Part shown: one piece after another, positions 4,056 to 30,193 of the stretch
Position numbering within the stretch: position 1 is the first letter of the stretch
Layout: every line of letters begins with the position of its first letter
Assembly: GCA_032164295.1 (NCBI GenBank)
Contig: JAJHTX010000011.1
Span: forward strand, 992,001-1,056,000
DNA length: 64,000 nt
Direction of reading: 5' to 3'
Source of the DNA: Inonotus obliquus
Lineage: Eukaryota > Basidiomycota > Agaricomycetes > Hymenochaetales > Hymenochaetaceae
Translations under genes and position numbers: made by a program
The notes under the pieces: generated by a model
The model's database searches: none
Told to the model about the DNA's origin: nothing
Seen by the model: the letters and a program-made list of their open reading frames with translations, nothing else

Positions 4056-4326
4056 ATTAGGAAGGTAGTGGTAAGAGAGAGAGAAGCGTCTCATTAGGCC
4101 TACATTGCACATTGAGCATTGCACAATGTAAAAAAGCGAAAACGAAAACGAAAACGAATGGAGGGACAGATCTAAGGAAGGACAGAGGACAGAGGTGGAC
4201 GAGGTCAGGTACGAGAAAGCTTGTTCACATACGCCAATATGCCCAATATCCCACAATGCCAGAATCCCAATGCCAATGCAAACGACAGTGCTAATGTTGA
4301 TATCAATGTTATCGGTAATGTTAATA

Positions 4327-9914: not shown

Positions 9915-10415
9915 TGTTATGCGAAACGACGGGTTCGGGGGTACTCGAACGGAGTCGGGGTCTCTCACACCAGAGCTTAGGGTACGCTGCCTCAAACGTC
10001 GAAGACTTGTACAACGACGGAGACGATCACGCAGGCTAAGGGATGGTGGTGGTAAGAAGATATATTTAAGTTAGTACAAACAATGAGTAAATACCTAAGG
10101 GATGGTGGTGGTAAGAAGATATATTTAAGTTAGTACAAACAATGAGTAAATACCTAAGGGATGGTGGTGGTAAGAAGAATAGTGAGACGGGGTACAAATG
10201 AGTCAGACTATCTACTTATATACACACCAGACGTGGGAAGATATTACTCTAAGAAGAATATTAGTAAGAAAGGAAAATAGAATATTACGGAACGTTCCGG
10301 TAAAGAGCGACTAAGCAAGATGAATAATAAGGATGAGTAAGCATATACAGAAAAGGAAGATGACAAATAAGGAATTAAGTAAGCAGAGCAAGAAGGAAAA
10401 GTTCAAGTCCTAACA
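9915..10415 (-). repeat. Gypsy copy 2, 3' LTR (501 bp)
   Basis: It is longer than the 443-bp 5' LTR because the ~59-bp unit containing CTAAGGGATGGTGGTGGTAA and AAGAAGATATATTTAAGTT is present three times, against twice in the right LTR. The length difference arose after insertion. Confidence 0.9.
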
Positions 10416-12744
10416 TTACCCCCCCTTCAAGAGTGAGTCTACGGTTTTCGCGGTGCTTTGGGATGTTTGTCATAAAACTCTTCGATTGCCTCTTCAGCAT
10501 TTGTCAAATCTTCTTCAGGCTGCCATGTTGGGTCTTTGTATCCTTCCCATTTGACCAAGAACTGAAGCTTTCGGCGATGGATACGCGAATCCAGTATCTC
10601 TTCAACTTCATACTCTTCTTCATTGTCGATGATCATAGGAGGTTTCGGCGGCGGGTGTTTCTGAGACTCAAAGACTGGTTCGATTGCGGGTTTAAGTAAT
10701 GCTTCGTTGAACACGGGGTGTACTTTCTTCCACGAACGGGGGAGTTTGAGACGATAAGCACTAGCTCCAACCTTTTCGACCACCTCGTATGGTCCAAACC
10801 ACTTGTCCTCGAGTTTAGCCGTCGGTCTGGATGTCTTAAGGTTACGTCCATCTAGGAAAACCTTGTCGCCCTGCCTATATTCCACGGATGCGCCTGCATG
10901 TCTGTCATGGAACCTCTTCATGTCTTCCGCCGCTTGTTTGAGATTCTTCTGAGCTATCTCATGTACTTCCTTGATATGTTTAGCGAAGTCTTCTGCAGAG
11001 TAGTTGGAAGATGATGTCACAACATCTGTGAAGCCCGTCGGATGCATGCCCGTGTTAACGAAGAATGGGGAAAGTTTTGTCGCAGAGTGCTCTCTGTTGT
11101 TGTATGCAAACTCCGCGAGAGGAAGCCAGTCGACCCAATCCGATTGCCTGTGGTTGACGTACAGGCGAAGATATTGTTCAAGTTCCTGGTTTACTCGCTC
11201 TGTCTGTCCATCCGTCTGGGGGTGATATGCTGTCGACGGATTTCCTTGGATGCGCAGTAACTTGTACAATTCCTTCATCATTTTTGCCTCGAACTGAGTT
11301 CCCCGATCATGGATGATCTTCCGCGGTAGCCCATGATGCCTGAAGATGTGATCCTGATAGATTTTTGCCATCCCTTCTGCGGTTAACTTTGTCGTTGTCG
11401 GAATCGCATGCATCTGTTTACTGAATCTATCCACTATGACGCAGATTGCATTATGTCCGCTCGACTCCGGAAGCTCCCCGATCAGGTCCACTGTAACCAC
11501 TTGCCATGGCGCCTCGGGTATCTCATTTGGGTGTAAGACACGTTGTTTCGCTGTTCTGACTGCTTTCGTCCGTTGGCACTTGTCGCATCCTCGTATGTAG
11601 CTTCTAACGTCTGTAAACATCGTTGGCCACCAGAAATCACGTCTGACCAGTTCGACCGTCTTTGATGAACCCGGATGTCCTGCCCATGGTGAGTCATAAC
11701 AAACCTGGAAGACCTTGTCTTGCATCTCATCCGGCACAAAGATCCTTCCATCCTTCTGCAGCATCCCGCCTTCCGTCGTTGCTCCTCTTGGCACTTCCTC
11801 CCTCGGCAGACTCTCCTGTGCTTCCTTAATCTTTTCCCTCAGAGTCATCAGATCCCCAGTGGTAAGGGCCCGTGCTAGCCATTCTTCTTTGATAAAGACG
11901 ATGTCCTTGTTGTCCTCCTTGCCTTCATCAAACCCTGCTCGCAGTGATAATAAATCAGCCTTTCCCATTGACGTTCCTGGTTTGTGCACTAATACGAAGT
12001 CGAATTCAGCCAGTTCCGTTCTCCAACGTGCTTGGCGGTAATTGAGCTTGTGCGCCTCCTTAAAGTACATGAGATTCAGATGATCCGACCAGACTTCAAA
12101 GCGATGTTTAGCGCCCAAAAGGTACTGTTGCCAGTCTCGAAGTGCTTCAACAATTGCCAACATCTCTTTGTCATAGATCTCATAGTTCCGTTCTGCATCA
12201 CTGAGTGCCGCCGATCGATACGCCACTGGTTTCCATTTGCCATCCTCCTGTTGCTGTAGCAAGACTGCTCCTGTAGCGTAGTTTGATGAGTCGGCCTCCA
12301 CTCGATAAGGTCGATCGTGACTTGGGATAGCAAGCACGGGTGGACTACATAAGCGCTCCTTTAATCCTTCGAATGCCTTCCGCTGTTCCCTTCCCCACTT
12401 CCATTCCGCTTTGCCTGTCAACGACGTTAGGGGCTTGACGACTTGACTATAGTCCTTGATGAACCGTCGCAACCAGTTTCCGAAGCCTAAGACCCTTTGT
12501 AGCTCAGTAACATTCTTCGGCACCGGCCAGTTCCTCACCACCTCGCTTTTCTTCAGATCTACCTTGAGCTCTCCACACCCAATAATATGTCCTAGGTATT
12601 TGACTCAGTCGACCTCGAATTCGCATTTCTGTGGCTTAAGGAACAAGCGATTGTCACGAAGTCGTTTGAACACTTCCCGTACTGTTAGAAAAGCAATACA
12701 ATTCACTATTACTAAGCCTGATTGATAACCGAAGTAACTCCAAT

Positions 12745-13524
12745 ATGAATTGGATACAGGAAAGGTTGAATGCGGTTACACAAGCACTACAACAGCCAAT
12801 AATACCAGCAACACCAAGACCAGGAGTGTTACAGTATTGTAGCATATGTAGACCAGCACATGAGATAGCCGAAAAGCTACTTCGAGAGATACTGAAGGAA
12901 ATAACATACTCAGCAATCGTCAAGGGACAATCGGACATTATGATTAGGAGACGATTCATTGTAATGAACTATGAACCGAATACAACTGTACGAAAGGCTT
13001 ATGAACGAGAAGTCAGGTTACTCTCATATGATAATCATTACTTCCTATTGGCAATAGGAATACGAAACGTGGCTTCAGAACAAGATAATCACCAATGCGA
13101 TGTAGCAGTGCTAGACATCGATATACCCTACAGGAATGAACCTGAACATATCGCAAGAGAGTCAGCTTACAAGTGGACCGACTACCTAGTCCAAAGACTT
13201 AAGCAATTACTGACAGGAGGAAGAACAGTTGTCGAAGTAAAGGAAGGTCGACATGGAGGAATAATAAGGATCAAAGGAATCCGAGGCAGATCACTAGCAG
13301 ACATAGCAGTAGCACCAGGATACATTAGGGTGCAGCAAGTAATTAATAACATCGACACACCTGGGGCAATAACATTACCAAGATGGCGAAGTGTAGGAAC
13401 ACAGACAGAGCCGATACAGACACCCGTATGGCACGTGACCCAAACATTACCAAGTATGGCAGAGTTTGATCGACGGCTTCGAAGCCGATCACACGTTATG
13501 AACCTCGACCATATAATGCATTAG
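12745..13524 (+). CDS. Unknown CxxC protein encoded inside element A
   Basis: ATG at 12745, stop at 13522-13524, 259 residues, with no intron needed. I do not recognise a family. Visible features are a CSIC pair (C-x-x-C) near residue 33 followed by a long helix (EIAEKLLREILKEI), two strand-like hydrophobic stretches (HYFLLAIGIRNV and CDVAVLDIDI), an amphipathic helix (YKWTDYLVQRLKQLL) and a Gly/Arg segment (IIRIKGIRGRSLADIAV). The ORF of element B has CYKC, a similar helix, a THWTIVGIHDILAL strand and a WVANTLRELWAYCKAI helix in the same order, so the two look like very distant relatives. The open frame in an otherwise decayed neighbourhood suggests recent selection. The function is unknown; it could be a product of the parent retroelement. 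Confidence 0.6.
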   Translation: MNWIQERLNAVTQALQQPIIPATPRPGVLQYCSICRPAHEIAEKLLREILKEITYSAIVKGQSDIMIRRRFIVMNYEPNTTVRKAYEREVRLLSYDNHYFLLAIGIRNVASEQDNHQCDVAVLDIDIPYRNEPEHIARESAYKWTDYLVQRLKQLLTGGRTVVEVKEGRHGGIIRIKGIRGRSLADIAVAPGYIRVQQVINNIDTPGAITLPRWRSVGTQTEPIQTPVWHVTQTLPSMAEFDRRLRSRSHVMNLDHIMH

Positions 13525-13763
13525 GGCAGCACCAGACTAAGTGGATGAGGATAGATTACTAAGACGAGGACTGAAAGGTAATAAGAATATGACATAAGGT
13601 ATTTAGAGTCATAGGAAAACAGGTATGACCGGAACCGATATGAACAAGTCATACGGCAATGCACAGCAGCTAGCATCGAGTATGACTAGGTCTGAAAGTA
13701 GTTACATTGAAGCGAACGGACCAACAGTAGATAATTCCTATACTAGGCAGGCATGTAAAATAG

Positions 13764-13771
13764 TATAAATA
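13764..13771 (+). promoter_or_regulatory. TATA box of element A
   Basis: TATAAATA lies 240 nt after the ORF and 525 nt before the element end. In an LTR this marks the U3/R border, so transcription of the parent element would start about 30 nt further on. Confidence 0.6.
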
Positions 13772-15562
13772 GGAGGCCATCGTAGGGCCAACCCAGCAGT
13801 TTAATCCAAGTCCAGAGACTCAGAGTAAACCTCACAGAAAGTCTCCAGTTGATCGATAAACAACCTCCGCACTAAGAACCCAATAAGTACTTGAGAGCGA
13901 CACTCCTTAAGCTAATCAACAGTGTGAGTTGAAGCTTAGGTAAAATACGGATAGCAGCTAGACTGTCTCTCCCTATCGTCAGCCTGAGTGCTAATTGATC
14001 AAAGTGTGGTAAGCATTGATCTCTCATACCTCTCTTATCGTGTCCAACAAGTGTTAGTACAGACAGTTAAGGTTATCACTTAGTTATCAGTATAACTAAC
14101 ATTACGATAATAGTATTAGACCACAGGCTACAGAAGTTGGTTGATAGTTGTTTTAGACGGAGCTTAACACATCCCCTAAGGTAGCTATTGATTCCACAGC
14201 TATAGTAGCATAGTGGATTTGGATTAACCCCTCTTTCGAGGCAACAACCAGATCTAGACGCCGATCCTACCAGATCAGCGCCACACCGAATTAACACGTA
14301 CCAGCTGATAATGCTCGGCATTGTTGGTGGAGAATATCAGAATGTCGTCAAGGTAAATGATGATTCTTCCTTCGTGTATTAAGTCCCTGAAGATGTCGTT
14401 CATAAAGCCTTGAAACGTAGCTGGTGCATTGGTTAACCCGAAGAACATAACCGTAGGTTCGAATAAGCCTAGGTTCGTCCGAAAGGCAGCCTTCCACTCA
14501 TCTCCTTCTCGAATACGTATGTTGTAGTACCCCCAATGTACGTCTAGTTTGGTGAAGATCCTCGCCTCCTTGACTTTATCGATTAATTCTTGAATAAGCG
14601 GGAGAGGGTATTTGTTTTTGACTGTTCCCTCGTTAAGCTTTCAATAATCTTGGATTGCACGGAGCGAGCCGTCTTCCTTTTTGATGAAGAAGAAGGGCGA
14701 TGCCATTGGTGACTTTGATTCACGGATTCGTCCAGAGGCTAAGTTTTCTTCGATGAAATCCTTCAGCGCCGCTTGCTCCTTCGGGTTCAAAGGGTACACC
14801 TTGCAATCGTTAGGCTTAAAATCCGGCTTTAGGTCTATCGCATGATCCCAAGGGCGATGTTCGAGAAGCTTCTCAAAGCTCTCTTCACTGAATACATCCT
14901 CAAAATCATCGAGATAAGTCGGCCAAGCTCGATCAGATGCGGTCATACGATTATGCACGACTGCAGTTGCCTCTGGGATTCGATTCTGCTGACAGCCAAG
15001 GGGACAACGTGTGAACTCGACCTTCCCCGTAGTCCAATCTATCTCTGGATTGTGCTTTGTAAGCCAGTCATGTCCTAGGAAGACGTCGCAGTGAGCCAAG
15101 CGAGTAACGGCTAGGCGGATCGCTTCAGTGTGTTGTCCAAAAACCATTTCTAGCTCAATGTAGTGCGTTATCATCCCCCCTGTGTTGAGAGTTCCGTCCG
15201 CATTAAAGACCATCATAGGACGTATGTATCTGATCCTGGGAAGATCATGCTTAAGCACAAATTCCTCATCGATACAGGAGCCGGTGCAACCAGAATCGAC
15301 TAGAGCTCGCGCTTTCTCTAAGAAGTCCCCCTCATATCTAGGCAGGCTGACCATGGATAAGATCACCTCTATCTCCAGTTGACGCCCATTTGATCCTCGT
15401 ATAAATCGTGGGTGCGCCTGGAAATAGGCTTCTTCAAAGACCTCCACATCATCTTCTGTTAAATCTTCTTCTGCTCTTGTTGGTATCATGTCGGTCAAGA
15501 TTTTGTAGTAGGGTGCAGCGTCATCGTGTTTCAAATCTCTAATGTAGTATACAGACGATGAG

Positions 15563-16933
15563 TCATGGAATACGCGCGACAAAACGAAATCTTGTGAAGT
15601 TTGACCAGTCGTCCCGACGACTACTCCTGGTCCTTGATAAAATCCTCCACCCCCTTTCTTCATCGACATCCTCCGCATCAGCTTGCATCACTCGCAGCTC
15701 CTCAGGACCTTGGTCGATCAATTGAAAGGCGCTCTCCCTCATTCTTCCCAGTTCGTCTGCAAAGAGCTGGCGCATCTCTGGTTCCCATGCCGTTATCGTT
15801 GCTCGCACAATCTGCTCCTTCCTAGGGCATTTGGCTGCGATGTGTCCTGGTGTTCCACAGGCCCAGCAGTTAAAGCTCCTCTTTGCTCGTTCGACAACAA
15901 CGTCCATAGGTATGCCCATCCCGGGATGAGTTCCTGGTCCTACTCCCTGATGATCACGCTGAACCGGAGGGACCTGCTGCTGACGTTGCTGTGGCTGTTG
16001 GACTTGGGGTGGGTTCCTCGTCTGGATTTGGTTTGACCAGTTCAAGCGGGGAGGACCTGTCCTAGTTGTAGAAACATGATGCAACTGTTGCTCGATCCTA
16101 TCAACGTCTATCGCTTTGGCCTTCCAGCCATCATAGGTGGTAGGGACGGTGGCTGAGCGCATGACTCTCTTGACAACCTCTAGGTTCAACGCATATTTCA
16201 AGCGATCGATAAGAATACCATCGTACAGTGCATCTGTAAGACCAGCTGCTTGTTGCTTGATGTCGAGCTTGACGAAGAATTCGTCGGCTGTCAACTTCCC
16301 TTGAGTCAGGCGCCTAAGATCCTCCAGCGCCTTCTCTTTCTTGTTCGGATCGTCAAATGACTTATCTAGGGTTGTTTGGAAGGCGGCCCAGTCATCCGGA
16401 ATACCATTCGCTTGGTTCGCATCGACGTAGTTCTGAGCCCATGTGCTGGCCGCTCCTCCTCTCATATACGAAAGAACGAAGAGGATCTTGCTCTTGCCTG
16501 TTGGAAACGACCTTGGATCAGACTCAAAGCAAAGGGTATACTCGCGTTTGAAGTCCTTGTAGTTGCTGCCATCAAACTCGCTCGGTTCCTTTGCACGAGT
16601 CTTTGGTGGTGGGGCTGGGAGGGCTGCAGGTTGCGGCATCTGCCCCAGTGCCAACGCAAACATCTGCGCAAACTGCTGCATCTGCGCCTGATTGAAACCT
16701 TGCGCCATCGGAGGGGTTGGTGCTCTAGGGGGAACAGGAGGGGGTACTGGTTGTTGTCCTTGTCCGCCTGACATTCGTAGTACAGGAGTCTCTAGAGAGG
16801 ATACGTCCGAGTCGCTTCTTGACGTTGGAGTAGGGGACGGGGGCGACGTAGGCGGAGTCTGAACAAATAGTTCGTCTATGTCTCTCTCCACGGCGTCTAG
16901 TAGTAAGGCACGTCGATGATGAGTTCTCGACAA
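15563..16933 (-). CDS. Gypsy Gag with CCHC zinc knuckle
   Basis: The frame is about 456 codons. A Pro-rich N-terminal part (to ~residue 120) is followed by a retrotransposon gag domain (EFDGSNYKDFKREY... LRRLTQGKLTADEFFVKL) and a zinc knuckle CWACGTPGHIAAKC near residue 360. Gag packages the RNA into cytoplasmic particles. No in-frame ATG opens the frame near its 5' end (the first codon of the open frame is TTG after TAA), and an ATG at 16976 lies in another frame, so the start is unresolved or mutated. The pol frame begins within the last 115 nt of gag, shifted one base forward (+1). Confidence 0.85.
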   Translation of the reverse strand: MSRTHHRRALLLDAVERDIDELFVQTPPTSPPSPTPTSRSDSDVSSLETPVLRMSGGQGQQPVPPPVPPRAPTPPMAQGFNQAQMQQFAQMFALALGQMPQPAALPAPPPKTRAKEPSEFDGSNYKDFKREYTLCFESDPRSFPTGKSKILFVLSYMRGGAASTWAQNYVDANQANGIPDDWAAFQTTLDKSFDDPNKKEKALEDLRRLTQGKLTADEFFVKLDIKQQAAGLTDALYDGILIDRLKYALNLEVVKRVMRSATVPTTYDGWKAKAIDVDRIEQQLHHVSTTRTGPPRLNWSNQIQTRNPPQVQQPQQRQQQVPPVQRDHQGVGPGTHPGMGIPMDVVVERAKRSFNCWACGTPGHIAAKCPRKEQIVRATITAWEPEMRQLFADELGRMRESAFQLIDQGPEELRVMQADAEDVDEERGWRILSRTRSSRRDDWSNFTRFRFVARIP

Positions 16934-17350
16934 CGTTTAACGACGAGGAGGGGGTACGGGTAATGGGTCTAGGCACTGACGTAAGTTTGTCGGCAAGCCG
17001 TCTGTAAGTCTTACTACAACACGGAAGATCCAGGCAGGAAAAACAATGGAGAAACCCGGGGCACTATGAACGTGTAGGAACTCCTTGGTGTAGATGACGT
17101 TTCCTCAGCACCAGATGGTAACGATGAGCGCCAGGGTGGCTTTCGGGTTAAGGGTTGTAACAGATCGGAATTACACAGAAACTTTGACAGTCTCCGGGCC
17201 GGTTGTTGTTATCTCGGTAGAAACCGGGTGTGTAAAAACTCGTGTTCATCGGGTGGTACTCGACGTCAATGGGAGACCGCAGGAGGGAACAGCAAGGTCT
17301 GGGTAACTCAGAGGTCGCTGAACGGTCCTGGTACGTGGGTCTCACTATTA

Positions 17351-17793
17351 TGTTATGCGAAACGACGGGTTCGGGGGTACTCGAACAGAGTCAGGGTCTC
17401 TCACACCAGAGCTTTAGGGTACGCTGCCTCAAACGTCGAAGACTTGTACAACGACAGAGACGATCACGCAGGCTAAGGGATGGTGGTGGTAAGAAGATAT
17501 ATTTAAGTTAGTACAAACAATGAGTAAATACCTAAGGGATGGTGGTGGTAAGAAGAATAGTGAGATGGGGTACAAATGAGTCAGACTATCTACTTATATA
17601 CACACCAGACGTGGGAAGATATTACTCTAAGAAGAATATTAGTAAGAAAGGAAAATAGAATATTACAGAACGTTCCGATAAAGAGCGACTAAGCAAGATG
17701 AATAATAAGGATGAGTAAGCATATACAGAAAAGGAAGATGACAAATAAGGAATTAAGTAAGCAGAGCAAGAAGGAAAAGTTCAAGTCCTAACA
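17351..17793 (-). repeat. Gypsy copy 2, 5' LTR (443 bp)
   Basis: It begins (minus strand) TGTTAGGACTTGAAC and ends CGCATAACA. A TATATAAG box is conserved as in the other LTRs of the family. A few substitutions separate it from the left LTR, so the insertion is not brand new. Confidence 0.9.
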
Positions 17794-18189
17794 TTCGGAT
17801 GAGGGGAAGTGCAAGACATACGAGAAACGGTGCAGATGGTGGGATTCAAGATGACAAGAGCGAGCTGAGCGTATGCATGCCATCCCTCTGGTGCTCTCTT
17901 TAGATCGGAAAAGTACAGATACACGGATACGGTATCATTCGGTGGCGCGTTTGAATTACCGAAGGGATATAAAAGTGTTTGCCTAGTAAGACGTCCAAAG
18001 ATGAATGGTAAATCGTTATCACGGTGAAATATAAGGACGTACCAACGATGTCCCCCACCTCAAACTCCAGACTGATAATCTTCTTCTTTAATTTCCTCCG
18101 ATTTGCCAGCCTCCAACGGTAAATGGTGAACGGCCTTATTGCGTACGTGCCAAACCGGTCCAGTCCAGGTCCGGACTGGTCCACACCGG

Positions 18190-19317
18190 TAAATGTGCGA
18201 GATCGCAGCCGGTACCGGAGGTACCGGTCGAGGGGTGTATGGTATAAGAATACGGGGAGGGCCAAATGAGGCAGTACTTATCCAGTACGCTCACGGTACT
18301 TGTTGTCTGTAGAAGGGGGACGTAAAGAGAGCCAAAGGAATAATAGAAAGGGGTGCTGGATCAGCTAGATGTTGGGGGGAATGTGTTCTTGTCTGGAATC
18401 GAGAGGGTCGGTACCGTGGAAAAAACGTCGGTACAGGTCGGTACTGCAAGGAAACAGCTAGCACGGGGTGGTATAGCGAGAAACAGAATGAGGGAGACTG
18501 GTAGATGAAGGTGTCGACTGGACTGGGAAGCAAACCTGAGCCCTTGCACGGGAGGCTAACTCCTGACGTTCACTTGAGACGGAACTGGGATGGAACTCGA
18601 GATGAGACTGAGACGGAACTGGGAAGGGGGTGAGGAAACCTGAGCCCTCACATTAGAGGCTAGCTCCTAAGATTACCTGGAGAGCTACTACGTACAGGAG
18701 GAGATATTTATACTACTGTACCATAGTTAGCTCATAAGTCCAAAAGGAGAAAGTAAAAAGGAAGATCAAAACAAAGAAAAATGTCATAAGAAGAATGATT
18801 ACAGTAGAGCCATCAGGGGGACAACAAGAAAGGGTTAGGGAGGACAAGATACCAATTAAAACGTAGCATATAGTACCCCTGGATGAAAAGTCCTCAGGAC
18901 AAGAGATTTGAACCCCTGCCAAACGATACCGATGCATTCCTGGTGGTACCGGACCTGAAAACCTTAATGGATACTGACCCTGAGCTTCCCCAAAGAACCG
19001 GCATGCATACTCCAACCATCAGGAATGAATACCAGAGAGGGAGACGTCCGATCCATGTCATGAGAGCATGTTGAATTGTCAATTTGTCTCGGTACTGGGT
19101 TCGGCACTCGGTACTCTCGGTATTCTTGGTACCGGGTTTCTTGGCGCTCGGTACCGGTACTCTCGGTGTTCAGTATCTTGAGAAATGGGACCAACGGTTT
19201 CTCTAGGTGTGCTGGAGGATACTGGAAGGTGTAGATAGGACCGTACCATAGCATGGGGTAAGCATAGAATGGGATACCGGGCTTGATACCGAGCTCAGCT
19301 GCACGTAGTTCTCTTCA
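18190..19317 (-). mobile_element. Solo LTR, CCGG-site family, copy 2
   Basis: It is 1128 bp, inserted in hAT copy 1 with CCGG on both sides (18186-18189, 19318-19321). The uninterrupted site is in hAT copy 3 (35951-35954). On the minus strand it starts TGAAGAGAACTACGTGC and ends GCACATTTA. The TATAAATA box lies near 18710 (minus strand). Confidence 0.8.
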
Positions 19318-19471
19318 CCGGTCCGGAAAAACAGAAGGGAGCCGGACCAAGGACCGAACCAACCTGGACCTCAGCTGAACCGGACCTGAACTGGACTGGA
19401 CTATTGGTTCGGTCCGTGTCCGGACTGCGGTCCACACGGTCCAGGACCGGACTTCGGCAACCCTACTTATA

Positions 19472-20926
19472 CAGTCTCACGGCGGGCAAAATAGAATATC
19501 AGAGGGTGCGGTATTTAAAATTATTTTTTTGCCGAAATTTTAAATATCGGCAAGCATATCAGCATGTGATTTATATTTATAATACCGGCGGGATTGATAT
19601 ACTTACCGATATTTAAAGTAGATGTTTAGACTATCTTTCAGGAAGATATGCATAAAAACAGATGGGAATTTAAAATATCAACCCAATCGATATCCATATC
19701 GATATAAAAAATATGGGCACGTGGTTTATATAAATAATATCGGCAAGGTCGATATGCTTACTGATATTTAAAATAATTGCGAGAAAAATTCTTTAAATTT
19801 AATGCCCGCTGATATCCTATTTTGCCCGCCATGTCTTTTTCAAAAGTCCTGAGACACGTGCCAAATTGCCATTTTCGGCCCCTCCAGTACCTCAGAACAC
19901 AAAATAAATCATATCTCACTCAATTCTTGACCGTTTCGCGTCATCTAGGTTGCTAAATTCATGTCTCGATCGTGCCGTCCAGACCGTAACAAACCCGAGC
20001 AAAATCGGTTAATAGTTGACCCCAAAATAGCGCAAAACATCGTTTTTTCATGCATTCCTCATGTACAATTTTTCCTGCACTCAATTCTGGGTCTACAACA
20101 CCCACAAGTGTCTCAGAGCCCTCAGATAGAATATATGTAAATTTAGGGTTTGTATTTGAGGTGTGTTTTGAGGTGTATGTGCTGGTCTGGGGCATGCCTG
20201 GAAAGCACAAATCCCCCCTCATCCCCTGAGCCCCCCATGCCCCAAGAAGAAATGTCTGAGGCTAAGTTCATACATGTAAATTCATTTCAGATCTATTGGA
20301 GGTGATTTGAGTACTTCTCATGTCTGCTATGAGGATTGGTGCATTGATTGAGATGGAGGAGATAGGGAATATGCACTATACTTCCCTGCCTTTCCCCAGC
20401 TTCCCAACATACCCATTTGCTCTGAGAAAGGCTCAGATGCATTCAAATATACTCTAAATGAGTTCCCATGTATGAATTTATCCTCAGATATTTTTTCCTG
20501 GGGCATGGGGGGCTCAGGGGATGAGGGGGGATTTGTGCTTTCCAGGCATGCCCCAGACCAGCACATACACCTCAAAACACACCTCAAATACAAACCCTAA
20601 ATTTACATATATTCTATCTGAGGGCTCTGAGACACTTGTGGGTGTTGTAGACCCAGAATTGAGTGCAGGAAAAATTGTACATGAGGAATGCATGAAAAAA
20701 CGATGTTTTGCGCTATTTTGGGGTCCACTATTAACCGATTTTGCTCGGGTTTGTTACGGTCTGGACGGCACGATCGAGACATGAATTTAGCAACCTAGAT
20801 GACGCGAAACGGTCAAGAATTGAGTGAGATATGATTTATTTTGTGTTCTGAGGTACTGGAGGGGCCGAAAATGGCAATTTGGCACGTGTCTCAGGACTTT
20901 TGAAAAAGACTGTACGAAAAAGACTG
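19472..20926. mobile_element. Fold-back element with ~450-bp inverted arms (Tc1/mariner-like ends)
   Basis: The arms at about 19834-20275 and 20467-20912 are near-perfect inverted copies around a ~190-bp centre. Allowing for the MITE inside the left tip, both ends read CAGTCTTTTTCAAAAGTCC with TA outside, which fits a Tc1/mariner-type TA insertion. At the right end the tip GAAAAAGACTGTA is present twice, 14 bp apart. ORFs in the arms (87 codons) are mirror images of each other and have no recognisable product. The element interrupts the GDT1-derived exon 2 fragment at 20929. Superfamily assignment is from ends only. Confidence 0.6.
19478..19833. mobile_element. AT-rich MITE, 356 bp, inside the fold-back element
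   Basis: The terminal inverted repeats are CACGGCGGGCAAAATAG and (reverse complement of the right end) CATGGCGGGCAAAATAG, continuing to ATATCAG. The flanking TCT is present on both sides (19475-19477, 19834-19836), and removing the MITE plus one TCT restores the fold-back tip CAGTCTTTTTC. CAC at the ends with a 3-bp duplication is like CACTA elements. The interior has further inner repeats of AAATATCGGCAAG type. It has no coding capacity. Confidence 0.7.
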
Positions 20927-20928
20927 TA

Positions 20929-22094
20929 TTCTAGGACATGCATGTCATACATCTTTCGCAGTTATTGAAGGTTGATATGCGTACGTCTCTACTAAAATCT
21001 CAGTCAAACACGGTTCATCTCTTCTTCCCCCTTCTTATTTATTGACTTGCGACAAATACTACAGTGGCGAACATATTGGCGTATGTGTACAAGCTGCCTT
21101 TCTTGTACCCGGCTTTCTCCACTCCACCTCTGTCCTCTCTCCTTGTCCTCTCCTTAGATCTGTCGCTCTGTTTGTCCGTCTTCACCTTCGCTTTCGCTTT
21201 CCCATTTCCTTATTATGGAATATTAGTTATTTCTCCTTTCATCTTCCATCTATCCATTATTCATCTTTCGTATTCGTATTCGGCCCATATTATCGGAAAA
21301 TAGAATCAAGAATCAAGAATCAACATGTAACAATTCCTTCTCTCTACTTTTTCATCGCATGCCACCTGAGGACAGTGTTAGTTAGGGAGAAGTGTAAAGA
21401 CCCGCTCAGGAATTGCTGATTGCCTCCCACCGACGATTCCGTTTTACTTCTACATATTTTACAGTAAGGCCTGAGGGGCCAGGACATTACTATTATTTGA
21501 TGGACTATTCAAGTATATCATTGAGGTATTTTAGATATTGATGCCCTGTGAGTGCGTGATGCCAGCAATGTGCAATGTGCAATGTGCAATGTGCAATGTG
21601 GGATTAGTAGAGATGCGAAAGAGGCTGACTCGGAGGCATCGGTCGGACACCTTTCTGTCTGCACTAGCTGTTCAAGCTCTTGGGCCTCTGACAGGCTGCA
21701 GGTGCTGCTGCAAATCAGTGCTATTTAACCTAGGCCTGACTTTTCAAACATTACAGGCCTAGGTACGAGTGGTAAATATTCACGGGAGGGGAAGGTCTAC
21801 AGACGATTGGAGCGCCCGGCCGTTCTGAAATCTGAGTTCAACATCTCCGATTAATATTTGGTAATTAGGAGAACGAGTGCTACTACATAGTACTACCACT
21901 GGGTCACCAAGGGATGGAGTGGGATCGTGAAATATTTCTTTCGAGCTTATTTTCCAGACTCTCCTGTATGCGCAGGCTGTGATTTACGTTTATGTGGGCA
22001 GCTCTTACTAGTGCACCCCATGCAATTATAGTATTATGTGACGCAAGCCTTATCGACCATGTGTATGACAGGGGCAGAAATGTATCTAATTTAA
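20929..22094. repeat. Duplicated block with GDT1 exon 2 remnant, copy 1
   Basis: It is nearly identical to 37072-38236. The first ~130 bases are a decayed copy of GDT1 exon 2 and following intron in sense orientation (TATTCTAGGACATGCATG... CTCAGTCAAACACGG), then sequence like the GDT1 3' flank (GCGTATGTGTACAAGC, CCTTAGATCTGTC) without exon 3. The rest, 21330-22094, holds CAATGTGCAATGTG tandem repeats near 21567-21600 and no gene I can support. The 125-codon frame at 21042-21419 overlaps the GDT1-derived part and is not convincing as a gene. Confidence 0.7.
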
Positions 22095-23653
22095 TCACTT
22101 GTTGGGATCAAAATTATCCTTCACATGTCCTAGCCCCCCTGGCAGCTCATCATCACTACGCCACAGTCTTTTGTCCTTAGCCATTTCACTAGTTTCCTTG
22201 TAGTTTACCTGATCGAAGAGCTTTTCAATAGCTACTGCCAATTCAATGTCTTGCCCCCTCGCCATTTCCCCATTGGTTTGGTTCAGCAATAGAAACACGA
22301 AATTTCTGTTGGTGTATGAGTATCTTACAGGCTTATAGGTTTGGGATTTAGCATCTGAAGTGGTATGTTAACCCTCATTCGAATTAGGAGAAATTGAGAT
22401 GATACATGTTACGCCTTGCGCAGTCAGAGACGTCGATCACAGGATCAGAGACGTCGACGAGCAAGAAGACGAGCTACCACTTAATCACAAAAGACCGGAG
22501 TCTGCGACGTAGGTGATAGTACTAGATTTTAGCACGTCTATATAACGTACAAGGGGAATACGACTTACCTGCGACGTAGGTGATAGTACTAGAACAAGAG
22601 AGTGAGGAGACGATCACTCTCTAGTCCAGCCTTATATACCCAGACGCCGCGGGAAAGCTTTACATAAACTGTACAGTATAAACAAAGACAAATAGAGACA
22701 AGGGAAGAAGGGGAATGGCGGGATAAAGTTGTTATAGATTGTGATTAGCTCAGCCAGTAGAGATTAAGTAAGGAACGTGATTAAAATGAAAGTAAATATG
22801 CATCGACGAATAGAAAGAATGGCCGTATGAGGAAAAGAGAAAAGACGTCGTAACAATACAGACAATCATTGATGGAGCGAAGATAAACGTCGTTATTGAG
22901 TACCCAATTGAAGAGCTCATAAATAGCATTCGCCATTTGAGTATTTTGTCCACTAAAACGCTTCACTTCCGGGATGTCTTGGTGATGAAATGAAAACTCG
23001 AAACATCCGTTGGGCTCGAGAGAGATATCAAGCTTATGGCCTTTGCGTTTAGCGTCTGAAGTGGTATGTTAACCCTTATTCAAATTAGGAGAAACCGAGA
23101 TGATACAGACAAGCATGGATGTGGCCAATAAGAGGGTTCTTGAATATTTGCTCGCAGAGTTGCTCAATAGCTCTCGCTATTGTAGGGTCTTCCCCCCTCG
23201 CATCCTTCACCTCCCGGCCTTGGTCCTGTAATGAAAACACGTATCTCATGGATTTATTGCCCGCGCGAGAGATGTCAAGCTCATAGCTTTTGCTTTCAGC
23301 ATCTGAAGTGGTATGTTAACTCTTATTTAAATTAGGAGAAACTGAGATGATACAGACATTCATGCATGAGGACAAAATGACAGTATCTATTAAGTATCCA
23401 TTCGAAGAGCTTTGCAAGAGCTTCATGCTGCGTCCTGCCTTTAAATGATATCACTACCGTGACGGGTGCCTCTTTGGTTCGAAATCCACGCTCATACACT
23501 CTGTCAAGTCCCGGATTATCTACAATTATGCAGTCCAAAGTGAAATGTTGAGCATCTGAAGTGGTATGTTAGCCCCTTATTCAAAGTAGGAGAAACTGGA
23601 ATAATTACGGACAGTCTGACATCGCCTGAGCATGAAGACGCATCTCCCTCAAC
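22095..23653 (-). pseudogene. Tandem-exon gene, copy 1 (exons 1b-5), broken
   Basis: Exons on the minus strand are 23653-23613 (rest of exon 1), 23555-23358, 23302-23111, 23055-22864 and 22354-22095 with TGA. All inner exons are multiples of three (198, 192, 192) with phase-1 borders, so each encodes one 64-66 residue module with the pattern A-x-S-x-x-Y-x-L-D-I ... F-x-F ... A-I-E-x-L-F-x-W-(V/I)-L. Introns are 57, 55, 55 and (without an inserted solo LTR) 55 nt. The total would be 305 residues. Exon 1 is split: its first 35 nt are at 9064-9098 on the other strand, separated by the hAT insertion and a later inversion. This copy has one more module than the intact copy at 38237-39174. The family is not recognised. 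Confidence 0.7.
22407..22855. mobile_element. Solo LTR of 449 bp inside an intron
   Basis: Ends TGTTACGCC...CGTAACA and a 5-bp duplication ATACA (22402-22406, 22856-22860) define it. The empty site is in the intact paralogue at 38541-38551. It sits inside intron 4 of the tandem-exon gene; without it that intron is 55 nt. It contains internal direct repeats (TCAGAGACGTCG twice, CTGCGACGTAGGTGATAGT twice) and a TTATATAC box near 22631. No related full element is seen in the window. Confidence 0.85.
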
Positions 23654-23661
23654 CGTACAGC

Positions 23662-26169
23662 TAGGGTTGCCGAAGTCCGGTCCTGGACCGTGTGGACCGC
23701 AGTCCGGACACGGACCGAACCAATAGTCCAGTCCAGTTCAGGTCCGGTTCAGCTGAGGTCCAGGTTGGTTCGGTCCTTGGTCCGGCTCCCTTCTGTTTTT
23801 CCGGACCGGTGTGGACCAGTCCGGACCTGGACTGGACCGGTGAAGAGAACTACGTGCGGCTGAGCTCAGTATCGAGCCTGGTATCCCATTCTACGCTTAT
23901 CCCATGCTACAGTACTGTCCCATCTACACCTTCTAGTATCCACCAGCACACCCAGAGAAACTGCCGGTCCCATTTCTCGAAGTACCAAATGCCGAGAGTA
24001 CCGGTACCGAGCGCCAAGAAACCCGGTACCGAGAATACCGAGAGTGCCGAGTGCCGAGAAACCCGGTACCGAGACAAATTGACAATTCAACATGCTCTCA
24101 TGATATAGATCGGACGTCTCCCTCTCTGGTATTCATTCCTGATGGTTGGACTATGCATGCCGGTTCTTTGGGGAAGCTCAGGGTCAGTATCCATTAAGGT
24201 TTTCAGGTCCGGTAGTACCAGAAATGCATTGGTATCAATCAGCAGGGGCGCAGATCTCTTGTCCTGAGGACTTTTCATCCAGGGGTACTATATGCTATGT
24301 TTTCATTGGTATCTTGTCCTCCCTAACCCTTTCTTGTTGTCCCCCTGATGGCGCTGCAATGTTCACTTTCCTTGTTACATTTTTCTTTAGACTTTTCTTT
24401 GTTTTGATCTTCCTTTCTACTTTCTCCTTTTGGATTTATGAGCTAACTACGGTACAGTAGTATAAATATCTCCTCCTGTACGTAGTAGCTCTCCAGGTAA
24501 TCTTAGGAGCTAGCCTCTAGCGTGAGGGCTCAGGTTTCCTCACCCCCTCTTAGTTCCATCTCAGTCCCGTCTCGAGCTTTGTCCCAGTCCCATCCCAGTT
24601 CCGTCTCAAGTGAACCTCAAGAGTTAGCCTCCCGTGCGAGGGCTCAGGTTTGCTTCCCAGTCCAGTCGACACCTTCATCTACCAGTCTCCCTCATTCTGT
24701 TTCTCGCTATACCACCCCGTGCTAGCTGTTTCCTTGCAGTACCGACCTGTACCGACGTTTTTCCCACGGTACCGACCCTCTCGATTCCAGACAAGAACAC
24801 ATTCCCCCCAACATCTAGCTGATCCAGCACCCCTTTCTATTATTCCTTTGGCTCTCTTTACGTCCCCCTTCTACAGACAACAAGTACCGTGAGCGTACTG
24901 GATAAGTACTGCCTCATTTGGCCCTCCCCATATTCTTATACCATACACCCCTCGACCGGTACCTCCGGTACCGGCCGCGATCTCGCACATTCACCGGTTT
25001 GGCACGTACGCAATAAGGCCGTTCACCGTTTACCGTTGGAGGCTGGCAAATCGGAGGAAATTAAAGAAGAAGATTATCAGTCTGGAGTTTGAGGTGGGGG
25101 ACATCGTTGGTACGTCCTTATATTTCACCGTGATAACGATTTACCATTCATCTTTGGACGTCTTACTAGGCAAACACTTTTATATCCCTTCGGTAATTCA
25201 AACGCGCCACCGAACGATACCGTATCCGTGTATCTGTACTTTTCCGATCTAAAGAGAGCACCAGAGGGATGGCATGCATACGCTCAGCTCGCTCTTGTCA
25301 TCTCGAATCCCACCATCTGCACCGTTTCTCGTACATCTTGCACTTCCCCTCATCCGAATAGTCATAGCTTTTCGCATGTTGGAGCACGACCAATATCAGA
25401 ATTATCCCTAGATGCGCACCTTCGTTTCATTGCTGATGAGTGCGATTGGGGTTTTACACATTTCAGCGAGTTGAGGAAGCTGTTTACTATTCAATAGGGT
25501 TACAGCTATCCCACGATCGAAGATGAGACGGTAGATGTTAGCGTTTTCGTGCGTGTCCTCGAGGACCCAACGGAAGTGTTATGGCACAACTTTGTAAAGT
25601 TCATTTTCCCATTCATGCGTTGTAGCTTTGCATGGTTCTGATGCCTTTGTGTAGCTATGACTCATTGTTACAGTCGGACCTATAACTAACTTCCTTCCAC
25701 ACCCCTTTCATGTCAGGAGCAAATGTTTGTCCACCGAATCTACCTGCAATAACGACTTCGATCGACACCCAGATAACTTCGTTTGCAAGTGACGAAAGTT
25801 GGGCAACCATGCTGTTCACGGTTTCCTAACATTTCACCCTGCACATCTACGTCGACAACCTTGGACAAGTTCCGTGTGCGACAGCCTTTGTGACTCACGA
25901 AATTGAACACACTTGGTTAGTGAGGTTGCTAAATCTTCGACAGTGTGCATGGTAAACCAAATATTCACAGAATATTGGAATTAACAATAATACATCTGGT
26001 CCAGGTCCGGACCAGGGTCGGACCTGGACCGAACCAAATGTCCAGTCCAAGTGTGGTCCGCCAGCCGTCCAGTCCTGGTCCATACAAAGAGCTGGAAAGT
26101 GGACCGGTCCGGTTCGAGGTCCAGTCAAAAGTGACTGGACCGGACAAGGACCGGACTTCGGCAACCCTA
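23662..26169. mobile_element. hAT-like non-autonomous element, copy 2 (holds a solo LTR)
   Basis: It has the same ends as copy 1, in inverted orientation to it. It is 2508 bp, or 1351 bp without the solo LTR at 23841-24993 and its CCGG. It carries the empty site for the gypsy insertion (CCGAA at 25354-25358, minus strand TTCGG). Flanks are CGTACAGC (23654-23661) and TGTATAAG (26170-26177), mismatched with each other but matching copy 1 flanks as reverse complements. It has no transposase. Confidence 0.85.
23841..24993 (+). mobile_element. Solo LTR, CCGG-site family, copy 3
   Basis: It is 1153 bp, starts TGAAGAGAACTACGTGC, ends GCACATTCA, with CCGG on each side (23837-23840, 24994-24997). It lies at a different CCGG of the hAT element from copy 2 (empty site 35920-35923 in hAT copy 3). 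The TATA box TATAAATA at 24461 follows 620 nt of U3 and precedes 530 nt of R-U5. The U3 contains a GGTACCGAG/CGGTACCG-rich minisatellite (about 23990-24075) and no convincing gene; the 104-codon frame at 24146 is repeated in the other copies but lacks protein-like features. Confidence 0.8.
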
Positions 26170-26177
26170 TGTATAAG

Positions 26178-26697
26178 GCGTATCCGGCATATCCGCGACC
26201 AAGGTTGATAGTATACTTACAGAGCAAAAAAATGGCCCAGGACCTTCCAACGTGCATATAACGAAGTACCGTCGGTGCTTATGGGACAACACAACGTCAA
26301 CGAATGGTCATCATGGTGATTGGTGAAGGTCCAAATGTGTAATCCCGCCGTCACCCAACCTGATTCTTGGCAGTGATGTCTGACTAATCATTTTCTAGGT
26401 CTTGATTACTTGATATGGCACGGAAACCTAGTGAGAGGGACGCAAACTGGCTTACGAAAGGTTTTGGCTCTTTGAAGGGACATTCGACTAATCAATTTCC
26501 ACTTATTTCATCATTAATTCTTCATCCTTGGGCCCTAGATGCCGTATAAGCGCGGATACGGCGGATTTCCAATGTCATATCCGGTTTCGCGCGTATATAT
26601 CCGCCCGGATATTTGCCCTCCAAAACTCATCCGCATCCGGGCGGATAGCGGATCCAGCATATCTTATCCGGGATATCCGATCCGCTGTGGAGCCCTA
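26178..26697. other. Unassigned spacer with a possible MITE end
   Basis: There is no gene here. The part 26540-26697 is rich in inverted CGGATA/TATCCG motifs and ends GGAGCCCTA directly against a duplicated block (26698), as a transposon end would. Its reverse complement starts TAGGGCTCCACAGCGG, an hAT-MITE-like terminus, but I find no matching left end or 8-bp duplication. Confidence 0.35.
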
Positions 26698-27049
26698 GTC
26701 CACAAGTTTTGGTCACGAAGCGGGTGGGGCAACACTGGCAATAACTTCCAGCGCAGCTTTCTCACAAGCATTGAAATAATCAAATAGGTGGACGTTGATA
26801 CCACCGTTGATCCCCCCCTTCCCCTTTCTGCATTCGGAAGACTGGAGACCTATCTTGTTGCAGCAGAATTTCACTGTCGTTCGTTAGGTGCGATATTATT
26901 CTAGAGTTTTCTTAGGTTTACGTTATAAGTGGTTCTGACTGACGCTGCCACTCATGGACTCTTTCCACCAACCACGCAACCTTGAACCCGCAGCAGCAGA
27001 AACTTGCGAAATGGCGTTCAAAACGTCTTGAGCAAGGTCCTGGAGTGGA
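26698..27049 (-). repeat. Duplicated GDT1 upstream region joined to TPS2 codons, copy 2
   Basis: Read on the minus strand it continues 34166-34690: TPS2 promoter, ATG, codons to about 20, then the CGTT junction (about 27031) into antisense GDT1 codons and GDT1 promoter. The copia element separates the two parts. Compared with copy 1 (7441-7870) it lacks 8 nt of the TPS2 coding part (TCAGTGTC), but the junction itself is the same, so both derive from one event. Confidence 0.8.
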
Positions 27050-27688
27050 TATTAAATCAAATGGCAAGTAAGACCAAGGAGGAGTTATCTCAACTCGACT
27101 TGGCTTGGGCAGCGGCAGCGTAAACGCAAGTGCACACAGTTGTGGGACGAGCTAGCAATCACAATGATTAACAGACACTTCAGACTCTCGTCCTCATATT
27201 TAACATACCTAGCAATCACAATGATTACTAGGTTAAGTGTACAGATCAGTATACAAGTACAATAACAATGAAGAGGGATTGTACTCACACAGACACTTCA
27301 GACTCTCGTCCTGAAGGTGTCAGTGTGAAAGGGAAGGTCTTATATAGACAGAAACACGTGGGGGCGTGAAAACAGGTGTCCACTATATCGCGCGAGAACA
27401 CGCAATTGTGACAAAAATGAAATGTAATGAAACAATACAAACGCAACAATGACGGAATGATGAGGAATAGGTCATAAGGTCAAAGATAAGGAATTTACAT
27501 TAATTGCACCATTCTGACACTCCCCCTCAAACATGCGACAGTCCGAATGAGGCTGCAAAATGTTTGGCCTTTAGGGATGGTAGCGCCTTTGTCATTATAT
27601 CTGCCAACATATCTTCAGTTGGGCAGTAAGTGAAAGGATTGTGCTGAAATTTTGATTTGATTAGGAACGCCGATCGAAACTACCCCGG

Positions 27689-28465
27689 ATGGGACCGGTT
27701 AATTTCACTGGCCGGAGACGATCAGGATCGACAGCGAGAAGCGGAGAACACGCGAATCTAATACAATCCGAAGCCGACGATCAAGAAGCATCGGCTAGCA
27801 ACGCTAATCCCGACGATCACACTAAACCTTCGCAAACGATGCAGCAAGTACAGCAACCTCCAACGGCTTGCTATAAATGCAGAAGAGTGCGACAGATCAT
27901 CGAAGACCTACACAAGATAATACTACGGGAGGCAACGGGCATGTTGACATATCATGTGTCCAGCGAACGAGCAACAGCTTATCGAGAATACCACAATCCC
28001 CCGGAGGTCGTTCGAAATCGCACGAGGTCAACGATAGCAATGGATACGGCAATAGGCATGCAACCAAAGACGCACTGGACAATAGTAGGAATCCACGACA
28101 TATTAGCACTCGAGTGCCCAAGCACATTCGTGGAGATCAGTGCAGACTACGTTACAAACCGCCGCTCACCGATAACAGCGGCATGGGTTGCAAACACACT
28201 CAGGGAACTATGGGCATACTGCAAAGCTATTCGACTACAAGGAGACCTATACCTAGGCTGGAGAATACCTTCGAACGATACTCGACGAAGTGTACGGCTA
28301 CTCATCGCCATAGGCACATACGTTAAACCACCTTGGTTTCCCCACGATGATATCCGATGTCGAATCACACTTGACGGCCCCGAACAAGAGTCCCGAGGCG
28401 ACAAGCAAATCACAGCCTTCATAGCCCCAGATGCTATACAACGGAACCCCGACGGAATTCCTTAA
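27689..28465 (+). CDS. Unknown CxxC protein encoded inside element B
   Basis: ATG at 27689, 258 residues, uninterrupted. The first 60 residues are a hydrophilic, Gln/Asp-rich tail not seen in the element A protein. CYKC near residue 61 is followed by a helix (VRQIIEDLHKIILREA). Then come a strand-like THWTIVGIHDILAL, a helix WVANTLRELWAYCKAI and a hydrophobic VRLLIAIGTYV. The order Cys pair, helix, strand, helix, strand is as in 12745-13524. I know no family with these features. After the stop, near 28540-28700, short CAGGGCGCAG and ACTCACTCACTGACTC repeats precede the TATA box. Confidence 0.6.
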   Translation: MGPVNFTGRRRSGSTARSGEHANLIQSEADDQEASASNANPDDHTKPSQTMQQVQQPPTACYKCRRVRQIIEDLHKIILREATGMLTYHVSSERATAYREYHNPPEVVRNRTRSTIAMDTAIGMQPKTHWTIVGIHDILALECPSTFVEISADYVTNRRSPITAAWVANTLRELWAYCKAIRLQGDLYLGWRIPSNDTRRSVRLLIAIGTYVKPPWFPHDDIRCRITLDGPEQESRGDKQITAFIAPDAIQRNPDGIP

Positions 28466-28795
28466 ATGCACGAGCAACTGCGGACGAGCGAACTTTAACT
28501 ACGGCGCAGCCATGCAAAACCAATGGCATACGAACACGCATTCAATGACTCACTCACTGACTCACTCCATGCACAGGGCGCAGCACAAGGCCGACCCCGA
28601 GCATAGGTTTCAATTCAGTTCAAGTCAAGATGAGTCAACGCCGAGTCATCGCCTTGCACAGGGCGCAGTCGATGAGTCAATCCGCAGCAGAACAATGGAA
28701 TTACCAGACGAGTTTGGAAGCTAGAATAACGAATCAGATCGAGAGTAGGAACTACGGAGCGTAGGAAGTGGTCCGTCCACAACATGAGGAAAAGG

Positions 28796-28804
28796 TATAA
28801 ATAG
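28796..28804 (+). promoter_or_regulatory. TATA box of element B
   Basis: TATAAATAG lies 330 nt after the ORF and 420 nt before the element end, in the same relative place as in element A. Confidence 0.6.
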
Positions 28805-29212
28805 TTGTAGACTTAGACCGTAGCTCCCCATCTTTCTTTCGATCGTCTTGTACATCGAGTCCTCTTAGGCATCTAGCTTCTAATCTGAAGACCACCTAAT
28901 CTGCTTAACCTCTCTTACTCTACGGCGTGGAACGATTGATTAGTCGCCCACCGACTAGAGAAGCTTGCGAACGGCAACCTACCGGAGTTTAACTGGGTAC
29001 TTGTCCTACTAGCCTGTCAACGAGGTTGAGGCCCGACTTGATCAGATAAACGAAAACGTCTGAGGCAACGCTTATTATACTTGGGAATCTGCCCTGCTTG
29101 TGAAAACCGAGTAGGCTCCGGAAACTCTTAGAAAAGCATCGCCGAACCCGTAACACTGAGAGGAGACCGTCCTATTGTGGTTACTGTATAGTCCCTTTAG
29201 GGCGAGCGTTTT

Positions 29213-30193
29213 CTAACAGTAAGAGAGTGTTATCCTTCCATCCTCTATCTCCTGACGTATGAAGTGGAAATCGATGTCGATGTGTTTGGTGCGCGCCTGA
29301 AACCTGTCATCCTTTGCCAATGCAATAGCTCCTTGATTATCCGACAAGAGAGGAAATGCGAATGGGCTCCAACCAAATACTTCCATCGCAAATGATCGCA
29401 ACCATAAGGCTTCCTTTGTAGCGTATGCTATTGCATAGTATTCGGCTTCGGTAGTTGATAGCGCAACACGAGTTTGGCGTTTCGACTTCCATGATATTGC
29501 TGAACCGTTCAGGAAGAATGCGTAGCCGGATATAGCCCTGCGCCCTTCAGTACTCATCCCATCAGCATCTGAATACCCAACGAACGACTGCTCCGGTGAT
29601 CGACCTAATACCAGTTTCCAATCCATTGTTCCCTTTAAGTACTGGTAGATTTGTTTGACACCGTTCCAGTGCGTTCGACCTGGTACTTCTGAGAAACGTG
29701 CAAGTTGATTGACAGCGTATTGAATGTCCGGACGGGTGTTGATAGCAGCATATTGAAGAGCTCCTAATGCCTGATGATAAGGTATTCCTTCCATGTCTAA
29801 CAACTCATCCATTGTACCCGCGCATTGGTCCGACGTATATTGTGTGTTTGGATCCATAGGCATCGCACGAGGTTTGACGTCTGCAAAACCATAACGTTCG
29901 AGTATCTGCTGAATGTAGGCCTTTTGAGATAGAGCGATGGTGTGATTTGTCCAGTCGCGAGTGATTTCTATTCCCAACAGCCAGTTTATTGGCCCAGAAT
30001 CAACGATTTCGAGTTTTTCAGCAATACGCTTCTTGGTTTCGACCATGTTCGATGGTTTTGATGTGACTATTTGAATGTCATCAACGTGAGCTGCAAGAAT
30101 GGTTATTTCACCATTTGGATGATGTCGATAGAATACTGCATGGTTTTTCTCCGAACGAGTGAATCCAATATCCTGAAGAGTAGTGCGTAGCAC
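29213..30193 (-). pseudogene. Copia RT C-terminus and RNase H, cut by element B
   Basis: The frame continues from the TGA at 30203. It has the catalytic ILAAHVDDIQIV (V-D-D), the LLGIEITRDW and SQKAYIQQILERYG blocks, and RNase H (SDADGMSTEGRRAISGYAFFLNG, STTEAEYYAIAYATKEALWL, DNQGAIALAKD). After ITLSYC the sequence enters element B at 29218. The host frame resumes at 27630 with PTEDMLADIMTKALPS and ends before the purine tract, so one insertion accounts for the gap. Confidence 0.9.

Follow-up and report, generated by a model that had tools for sequence, protein, structure and literature searches.

A conserved protein gene in the U3 region of chromovirus long terminal repeats of the fungus Inonotus obliquus

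It is usual to regard long terminal repeats (LTRs) as non-coding and to mask them as repeats. A stretch of 64,000 nucleotides (nt) from the fungus Inonotus obliquus (contig JAJHTX010000011.1, positions 992,001 to 1,056,000 of the forward strand; the whole stretch is called the window) contains two LTR-like elements, A and B, each of which carries an intact open reading frame (ORF). This raises the question of what kind of element holds such a gene and how it is kept. An initial annotation of the window offered two answers. Either the ORF is an accessory gene that lies upstream of the LTR promoter and is kept by solo LTRs, or A and B are mobile elements of a separate class, with a single gene and the appearance of an LTR.

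The analysis shows that A and B are each a solo LTR from one of two self-priming chromovirus families that have a protein gene in U3, the part of the LTR upstream of R. The whole explanation, in which this gene is under purifying selection and would be expressed from the 3' copy, is considered very probable. The layout of an accessory gene in an LTR is already known from the sag gene of mouse mammary tumour virus (MMTV). The two elements consist of the following parts.

12683..14296, forward strand: element A, a solo LTR of 1614 nt with TG...CA ends
12678..12682: left target-site duplication of A, CGTAC
14297..14301: right target-site duplication of A, CGTAC
12683..13797, forward strand: predicted U3 of A, with 25 ATG triplets in 1115 nt
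12745..13524, forward strand: U3 gene of A, 259 codons (259 amino acids), CxxC at residues 32-35
13764..13771, forward strand: TATAAATA box of A
13798..14296, forward strand: predicted R-U5 of A, starting with AGTTTAATCCA, the complement of the family's primer-binding site (PBS), with 0 ATG in 499 nt
27631..29218, forward strand: element B, a solo LTR of 1588 nt from the second chromovirus family, with TG...CA ends
27626..27630: left target-site duplication of B, GTAAG
29219..29223: right target-site duplication of B, GTAAG
27689..28465, forward strand: U3 gene of B, 258 codons (258 amino acids), CxxC at residues 62-65
28796..28803, forward strand: TATAAATA box of B
28830..29218, forward strand: predicted R-U5 of B, starting with ATCTTTCTTTCGATCG, the complement of the family's 16-nt PBS

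The TG...CA ends, the perfect 5-bp duplications and the common layout of an intact ORF of about 259 codons followed by a TATAAATA box had all been described in the initial annotation, and all were found again. So was the position of both elements inside retrotransposon frames that resume across the site, as can be seen when the flanks are translated apart. At A, the reverse transcriptase (RT) frame of the host element runs from '...AEHYQLV' to 'REVFKRLRDN', with a stop further downstream. At B, a copia RNase H frame continues from '...ITLSY' to 'CPTEDMLADIMTKAL'.

Relatives of both genes are numerous in the genome searched, which comprises 36 Mb in 30 contigs and appears basidiomycete in its gene content. 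The A protein has 124 matches (126 of 126 candidates scored) and the B protein at least 147 (147 of 207 candidates scored). Matches to A are mainly of three kinds, namely A (about 97-100% identical), A' (about 81-87%), and C together with C' (about 45-48%); the remainder are fragments or more decayed copies. The B copies listed are 95-100% identical. Counted by hand, 115 of the 147 B matches listed have no internal stop, and about 80 of these are unpaired.

Many of these ORFs come in pairs. Reading the match lists by hand gives 13 same-strand pairs of A/C-type ORFs at a spacing of 9.81-9.96 kb and, among the matches listed, 16 pairs of B ORFs at 12.34-12.49 kb, one run of three being taken as two pairs. 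The pairs are the LTRs of full-length elements. Element A matches, end to end, the LTR pair of a relative at G000 C6:2446559-2458126 (L009/L010), and a full-length relative of B lies within G000 C3:3569000-3585500 (L028/L029). Both LTRs were compared over their length in six elements (one A, three C and two B). They are 99.8-100% identical, and 5-bp duplications are present at all six. For the pairs L031/L032 and L033/L034, whose comparison is cut by locus borders, the visible parts are 99.7% and 100% identical. The full-length elements that were read have TG...CA ends and duplications on their LTR pairs, and the complete gene lies in U3 on the sense strand in both LTRs. Among 50 A/C-type copies examined (of 124), an LTR 5'-end motif lies at most 100 nt upstream of the ORF in 49, and 46 have the start-site box, at a distance from the TATA of 34 nt in A and A' copies and 33 nt in C and C' copies.

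Between the LTRs lie gag-pol regions. Two full-length elements, one of A and one of B, were searched with Pfam. In both, RT, RNase H, integrase, chromodomain and zinc knuckle score above cut-off, and the pol domains detected are on the same strand as the LTR gene. Capsid is above cut-off in A and below it in B. Protease is weak and below cut-off in A, and the B copy is cut by a locus border there. In the full-length A copy the chromodomain ORF is separate from the pol ORF. By these domains and their order, A and B can be classed as Ty3/gypsy chromovirus families. The ORFs of the C elements, judged from an ORF listing, resemble those of A and B. The B elements also have two additional ORFs after pol.

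L028:2524-3288 and 3713-4729, reverse strand: additional B ORFs, of 254 and 338 amino acids, the shorter one with a hydrophobic segment at its N terminus

All 17 full copies of the 338-amino-acid ORF are flanked by two B LTR ORFs, and an 18th match is partial. By hand reading, 37 of the 147 B LTR ORFs listed sit in pairs, and the majority of B copies are unpaired. Eight B loci were read with their flanks (L020-L027); five have an identical 5 bp on both sides and are therefore solo LTRs like the copies in the window. There is practically no chance that A and B are single-gene elements in the guise of LTRs, moving without any gag-pol of their own. In favour of this reading, the window copies are isolated, with duplications and intact genes, and few of the listed B ORFs are paired, there being 18 internal-ORF matches. 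Against it, near-identical LTR pairs with a PBS enclose gag-pol regions, which makes them ordinary LTRs, makes the solo copies their residues and refutes this reading.

One B locus has a different arrangement. At G000:C12:390421-415968, three B LTR ORFs are equally spaced (12,387 bp), with the 338-amino-acid ORF in each interval. This looks like tandem elements with a common LTR.

The gene can be placed in U3 if the start of R is located. In the full-length elements the PBS sits 2 nt past the 5' LTR and reads TGGATTAAACT in four elements (one A, three C) and CGATCGAAAGAAAGAT in two (both B). It is complementary to a stretch of the element's own LTR, over 11 of 11 nt in A and C and 16 of 16 nt in B. 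The distance from the TATA to the start of this stretch is 34 nt in A and B and 33 nt in C. Given such complementarity, the predicted 5' end of the RNA most likely primes its own reverse transcription. The self-priming stretch would then place the start of R at 13798 (A) and 28830 (B) in the window.

A second sign comes from ATG triplets. U3 holds 25 (A), 19 (C) and 22 (B) of them in 1.0-1.2 kb, and the last lies 44-46 nt before the start site. From the putative start site to the gag ATG, counted in one element each, there are 2 in 2597 nt (A), 1 in 2545 nt (C) and 1 in 1763 nt (B). First-order Markov simulations, with 2000 runs each, give means of 23.8, 22.9 and 13.4 and minima of 11, 8 and 2. 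The reverse triplet CAT is not depleted (33, 28 and 24). In the window, the R-U5 of B has 0 ATG in 387 nt (counted from 28832) versus 21 in 1201 nt of its U3. The jump in ATG density is thus an independent sign that agrees with the U3/R border given by the PBS, and it provides a way of mapping such borders from sequence alone. Together these features support a promoter and start site downstream of the gene, with the gene in U3.

Conservation of the gene can be measured by the ratio of nonsynonymous to synonymous substitution rates (dN/dS). Among 15 chosen pairs, the Nei-Gojobori method (NG86) gives 0.20 and 0.24 for A against two A' copies, 0.12-0.18 for C against C' and 0.14-0.18 within C. 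For A or A' against C, whose A and C proteins are 45% identical, it gives 0.28 with a dS of about 1.9, near saturation. The Goldman-Yang (GY) codon model yields an omega of 0.164 for 32 sequences, 0.166 for C and C' (21) and 0.257 for A and A' (11). The 32 sequences come from 50 aligned copies after 11 of 16 with stops and 7 of 34 without were omitted, so decayed copies are under-represented.

Counts of changes point the same way. The neutral ratio of nonsynonymous to synonymous changes (N:S) is about 2.5 to 1. Changes common to at least two copies number 36N:45S in A and A' (p = 2e-7), 37N:91S in C and C' (p = 1e-23) and 20N:20S in B (p = 0.003). The A/C counts use all 50 rows, among which L032 and L075 may be both LTRs of one element; the B counts use 26 distinct LTRs of at least 147, mostly picked without stops. 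Purifying selection is thus shown to keep the gene in the transposing lineages of A/C, and is supported in those of B. The accessory gene that the initial annotation had placed upstream of the LTR promoter, retained by solo LTRs, is borne out: the gene is present in both LTRs of gag-pol elements, the promoter is predicted downstream of it, and dN/dS among family members is far below 1.

The A/C gene also has relatives outside this genome. A profile of A and C finds 8 homologous proteins among 5.8 billion, and a wider profile finds 10. These ten (P0001-P0010), with sources labelled just ena, lgn or ncbi, are 46-85% identical to A, and several are fragments. They bear on the proposal that the ORF is a chance or recently captured frame without function, open just because the copies are young. 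The listed B copies, at least 95% identical, fit it, as do near-neutral singleton changes in B (41N:25S, p = 0.059, not significant). For A/C it is already contradicted by those homologues, by the divergence of A and C at a dN/dS of 0.28 and by the low values for C against C'. On balance such a frame is very improbable.

How the gene is expressed can be proposed from the layout. RNA from the 5' LTR would start at R, downstream of the gene, and would therefore contain the gene just at its far end, through the 3' LTR. Reverse transcription would copy the 3' U3 into both new LTRs, and for this reason every insertion would carry the gene in both LTRs; solo LTRs derived by recombination would retain it. 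Expression is likely to come from the 3' copy alone, through RNA begun in the internal 3' region or through genomic or spliced RNA reaching the 3' LTR. The 5' and solo copies, upstream of the promoter, are probably mostly silent. By analogy with MMTV sag, the 3' LTR copy is most likely the expressed one.

Several motifs fit this proposal. In B, the 431 nt from the end of the 254-amino-acid ORF across the LTR border to the gene start contain 0 ATG in both readable copies (expected 4.1-4.4), and AATAAAG lies 395 nt upstream of the gene. ATAAATA is found 84-86 nt upstream of the 254-amino-acid ORF with no ATG between in three of three copies. CTATAAG lies 86 nt upstream of the 338-amino-acid ORF, with one ATG between, in two of three copies (start located by exact letters). 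The A and three C elements have TATATAA at or shortly past the end of pol. The ATG-free 431 nt and the TATA-like motifs fit internal promoters or 3' subgenomic RNAs, without proving them. Another candidate was a fusion of the upstream 3' frame through the LTR border, since in both A and C a frame stays open up to the edge of the LTR. This frame does not represent conserved coding, because A and C use different frames across the common border.

Alternatively, the gene may also be active from solo and 5' LTRs, for example through neighbouring promoters, and serve trans-acting copy-number control or benefit the host. The many open and unpaired B copies would suit this, and endogenous copies of MMTV keep sag while losing virion genes, according to the part of the literature cited here (PMC3026287). 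Against it stand the predicted LTR promoter downstream of the gene, the stops in older A' copies and the young age of the B copies, which explains why they are open. Activity from solo and 5' copies is accordingly rated as unlikely, though less so than a frame without function.

Some observations weigh against a selected gene expressed from the 3' LTR. The NG86 dN/dS is 0.38 for A against one C' copy and 0.52 for two A' copies compared with each other; the latter value is as expected for the drift of dead copies, and five of six aligned A' copies are broken by stops. Changes found in at least two copies of A alone stand at 7N:7S (p = 0.069, not significant), and the signal in B is modest, with singletons as given above. 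In the A element on C6 the start ATG is ATA in both LTRs (L009:322-324, L010:277-279), where most other A copies have ATG; RIP or editing is a candidate cause. Less than 60 nt before the 3' LTR there are one ATG in A and five in C, and because of these, simple cap scanning from further upstream is unlikely in A and C. For the B gene, a search of 5.8 billion proteins yielded 222 candidates and no homologue among them. Finally, Pfam and PDB sequence searches with the U3 proteins return no significant match hinting at function.

What the protein does can be approached through its sequence. The initial annotation had described a CxxC followed by helix-strand-helix. The sequence fits this description, but single-sequence structure models of the two proteins have low confidence (pLDDT 37.5 and 40.6), too low for the folds to be compared. 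By eye, the A family has CxxC and later HxC or HxxC. Most probably the gene encodes a small accessory protein whose predicted CxxC-plus-helix head is possibly zinc-stabilised. A PADLOC search gives no significant family, and tblastn finds no match for the B protein among plasmids or for the A protein among phages. A tentative guess is that the protein influences how the element is expressed or how the host controls it.

A and B resemble each other weakly, and their genes may share an ancestor or may have been acquired twice. Comparing the proteins as a pair, BLASTP gives an E value of 0.014. Of 2000 shuffles, 1602 scored against the A profile, and 5 of these reach the score of B; the local alignment score is reached by 14 of 1000. 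Both genes have the same place in U3 and a similar length, and both proteins have, by eye, CxxCR with a helix and later C-x5-[DE]-I-x3-Y. Two unrelated genes would account for the global alignment, which is no better than chance (466 of 1000 shuffles reach it), and for an hhalign match of 24 columns at a probability of 20%. Common descent appears the better supported of the two, and separate acquisition, a good deal more plausible than any other alternative weighed here, is somewhat disfavoured.

A gene in U3 is a layout known from a few vertebrate retroviruses, and a conserved case in fungal chromoviruses would show an independent origin. MMTV sag lies in U3. The MMTV LTR is described as exceptionally long (about 1.3 kb), the 3' LTR encodes the accessory protein sag (superantigen), and one transcript comes from the LTR and a second from a promoter in env (PMC3026287, in part). 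The fungal elements are alike in having an accessory gene inside an unusually long LTR. They differ in superfamily and in host kingdom. For the U3 protein no Pfam family reaches its cut-off, a result that involves no direct comparison with Sag. The function cannot equal that of Sag, because fungi are without a T-cell system.

Accessory genes that reach U3 at the 3' end are also found in other retroviruses. The foamy virus internal promoter serves 3' ORFs, and the lentiviral nef gene overlaps U3. Both nef and the foamy 3' accessory genes run into U3 from outside, whereas the fungal gene is wholly inside the LTR and its candidate internal promoters are TATA-like motifs. The internal promoter of foamy virus is named in the cited part of PMC7828637.

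Among fungal chromoviruses, a survey distinguishes 20 clades, with Gypsy elements of up to more than 13 kb, 'add. ORF' marked and one or two ORFs in the majority (PMC2864245, in part). The elements described here share their gag-pol order, the chromodomain and LTRs with duplications, but no LTR gene is reported in the portion of that survey's text consulted. With Tf1/sushi-type elements they would share self-priming by a PBS complementary to the element's own RNA 5' end, as placed here. Unlike there, the self-priming stretch lies about 1.0-1.2 kb inside an LTR of 1.5-1.7 kb, because the gene occupies U3. In the chromodomain element crapaud of Podospora, LTR diversity is concentrated in the part of U3 that precedes the TATA. 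The LTRs measure 339-443 bp, and the cited part of the report mentions no gene in them (PMC10787394). No report of an LTR-borne gene in a fungal retrotransposon was found among titles and abstract starts of the open-licence literature.

The window itself contains a control, the element in which A is inserted.

10095..17795, reverse strand: chromodomain element hosting insertion A, with flanking repeats 10095-10417 and 17473-17795

These repeats are 99% identical over 323 nt (the true LTR borders may differ) and contain no frame of more than 52 amino acids. At least one other chromovirus of the genome is thus without such an LTR gene, this being the one looked at.

The AUG-poor leaders between the LTR start site and gag have features of their own. 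In A and C they contain a long frame that is free, or nearly free, of methionine codons.

L009:2404-3945: leader frame of A, 514 codons without methionine
L013 from 2327 and L017 from 2373: leader frame of C, 529 codons without methionine
L011 from 2285: leader frame of a C copy with one methionine, read for 520 codons
L009:1375-3971, L011:1301-3845 and L029 (reverse strand): AUG-poor leaders, with window parts 13798-14296 and 28830-29218

The leader frames of A and C are 34% identical. By eye, they have a hydrophobic N-terminal segment and acidic parts, and no Pfam family scores above cut-off. In A the frame ends about 25 nt short of the gag start, and in C it overlaps that start. Its dN/dS is 0.09-0.16 among the three C copies and 0.41-0.44 for A against C, near saturation.

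After pol, the A and C elements (L009, L011) have a short hydrophobic frame, which in C is possibly spliced to an acidic frame. Together with the additional ORFs of B, the leader frame suggests an element more complex than gag-pol alone. These elements may have become complex independently of vertebrate retroviruses. This would involve an old gene family confined to U3 and expressed from the 3' LTR via internal promoters, accessory ORFs after pol, a near-AUG-free leader of 1.8-2.6 kb that lets ribosomes scan to gag, and in A and C a conserved, (nearly) methionine-free leader frame of more than 500 codons that uses a non-AUG start or splicing. Taken jointly, these points have an even chance of being right. 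Fungal chromoviruses could serve as a system in which to test the purpose of an LTR gene and the translation of an AUG-poor leader with a methionine-free frame.

Two smaller frames accompany the leaders. The sole ATG of the B leader opens an ORF of 293 amino acids that overlaps the gag start. In A and C, a second methionine-free frame lies upstream of the long one, with 140 codons in A and 129 in C.

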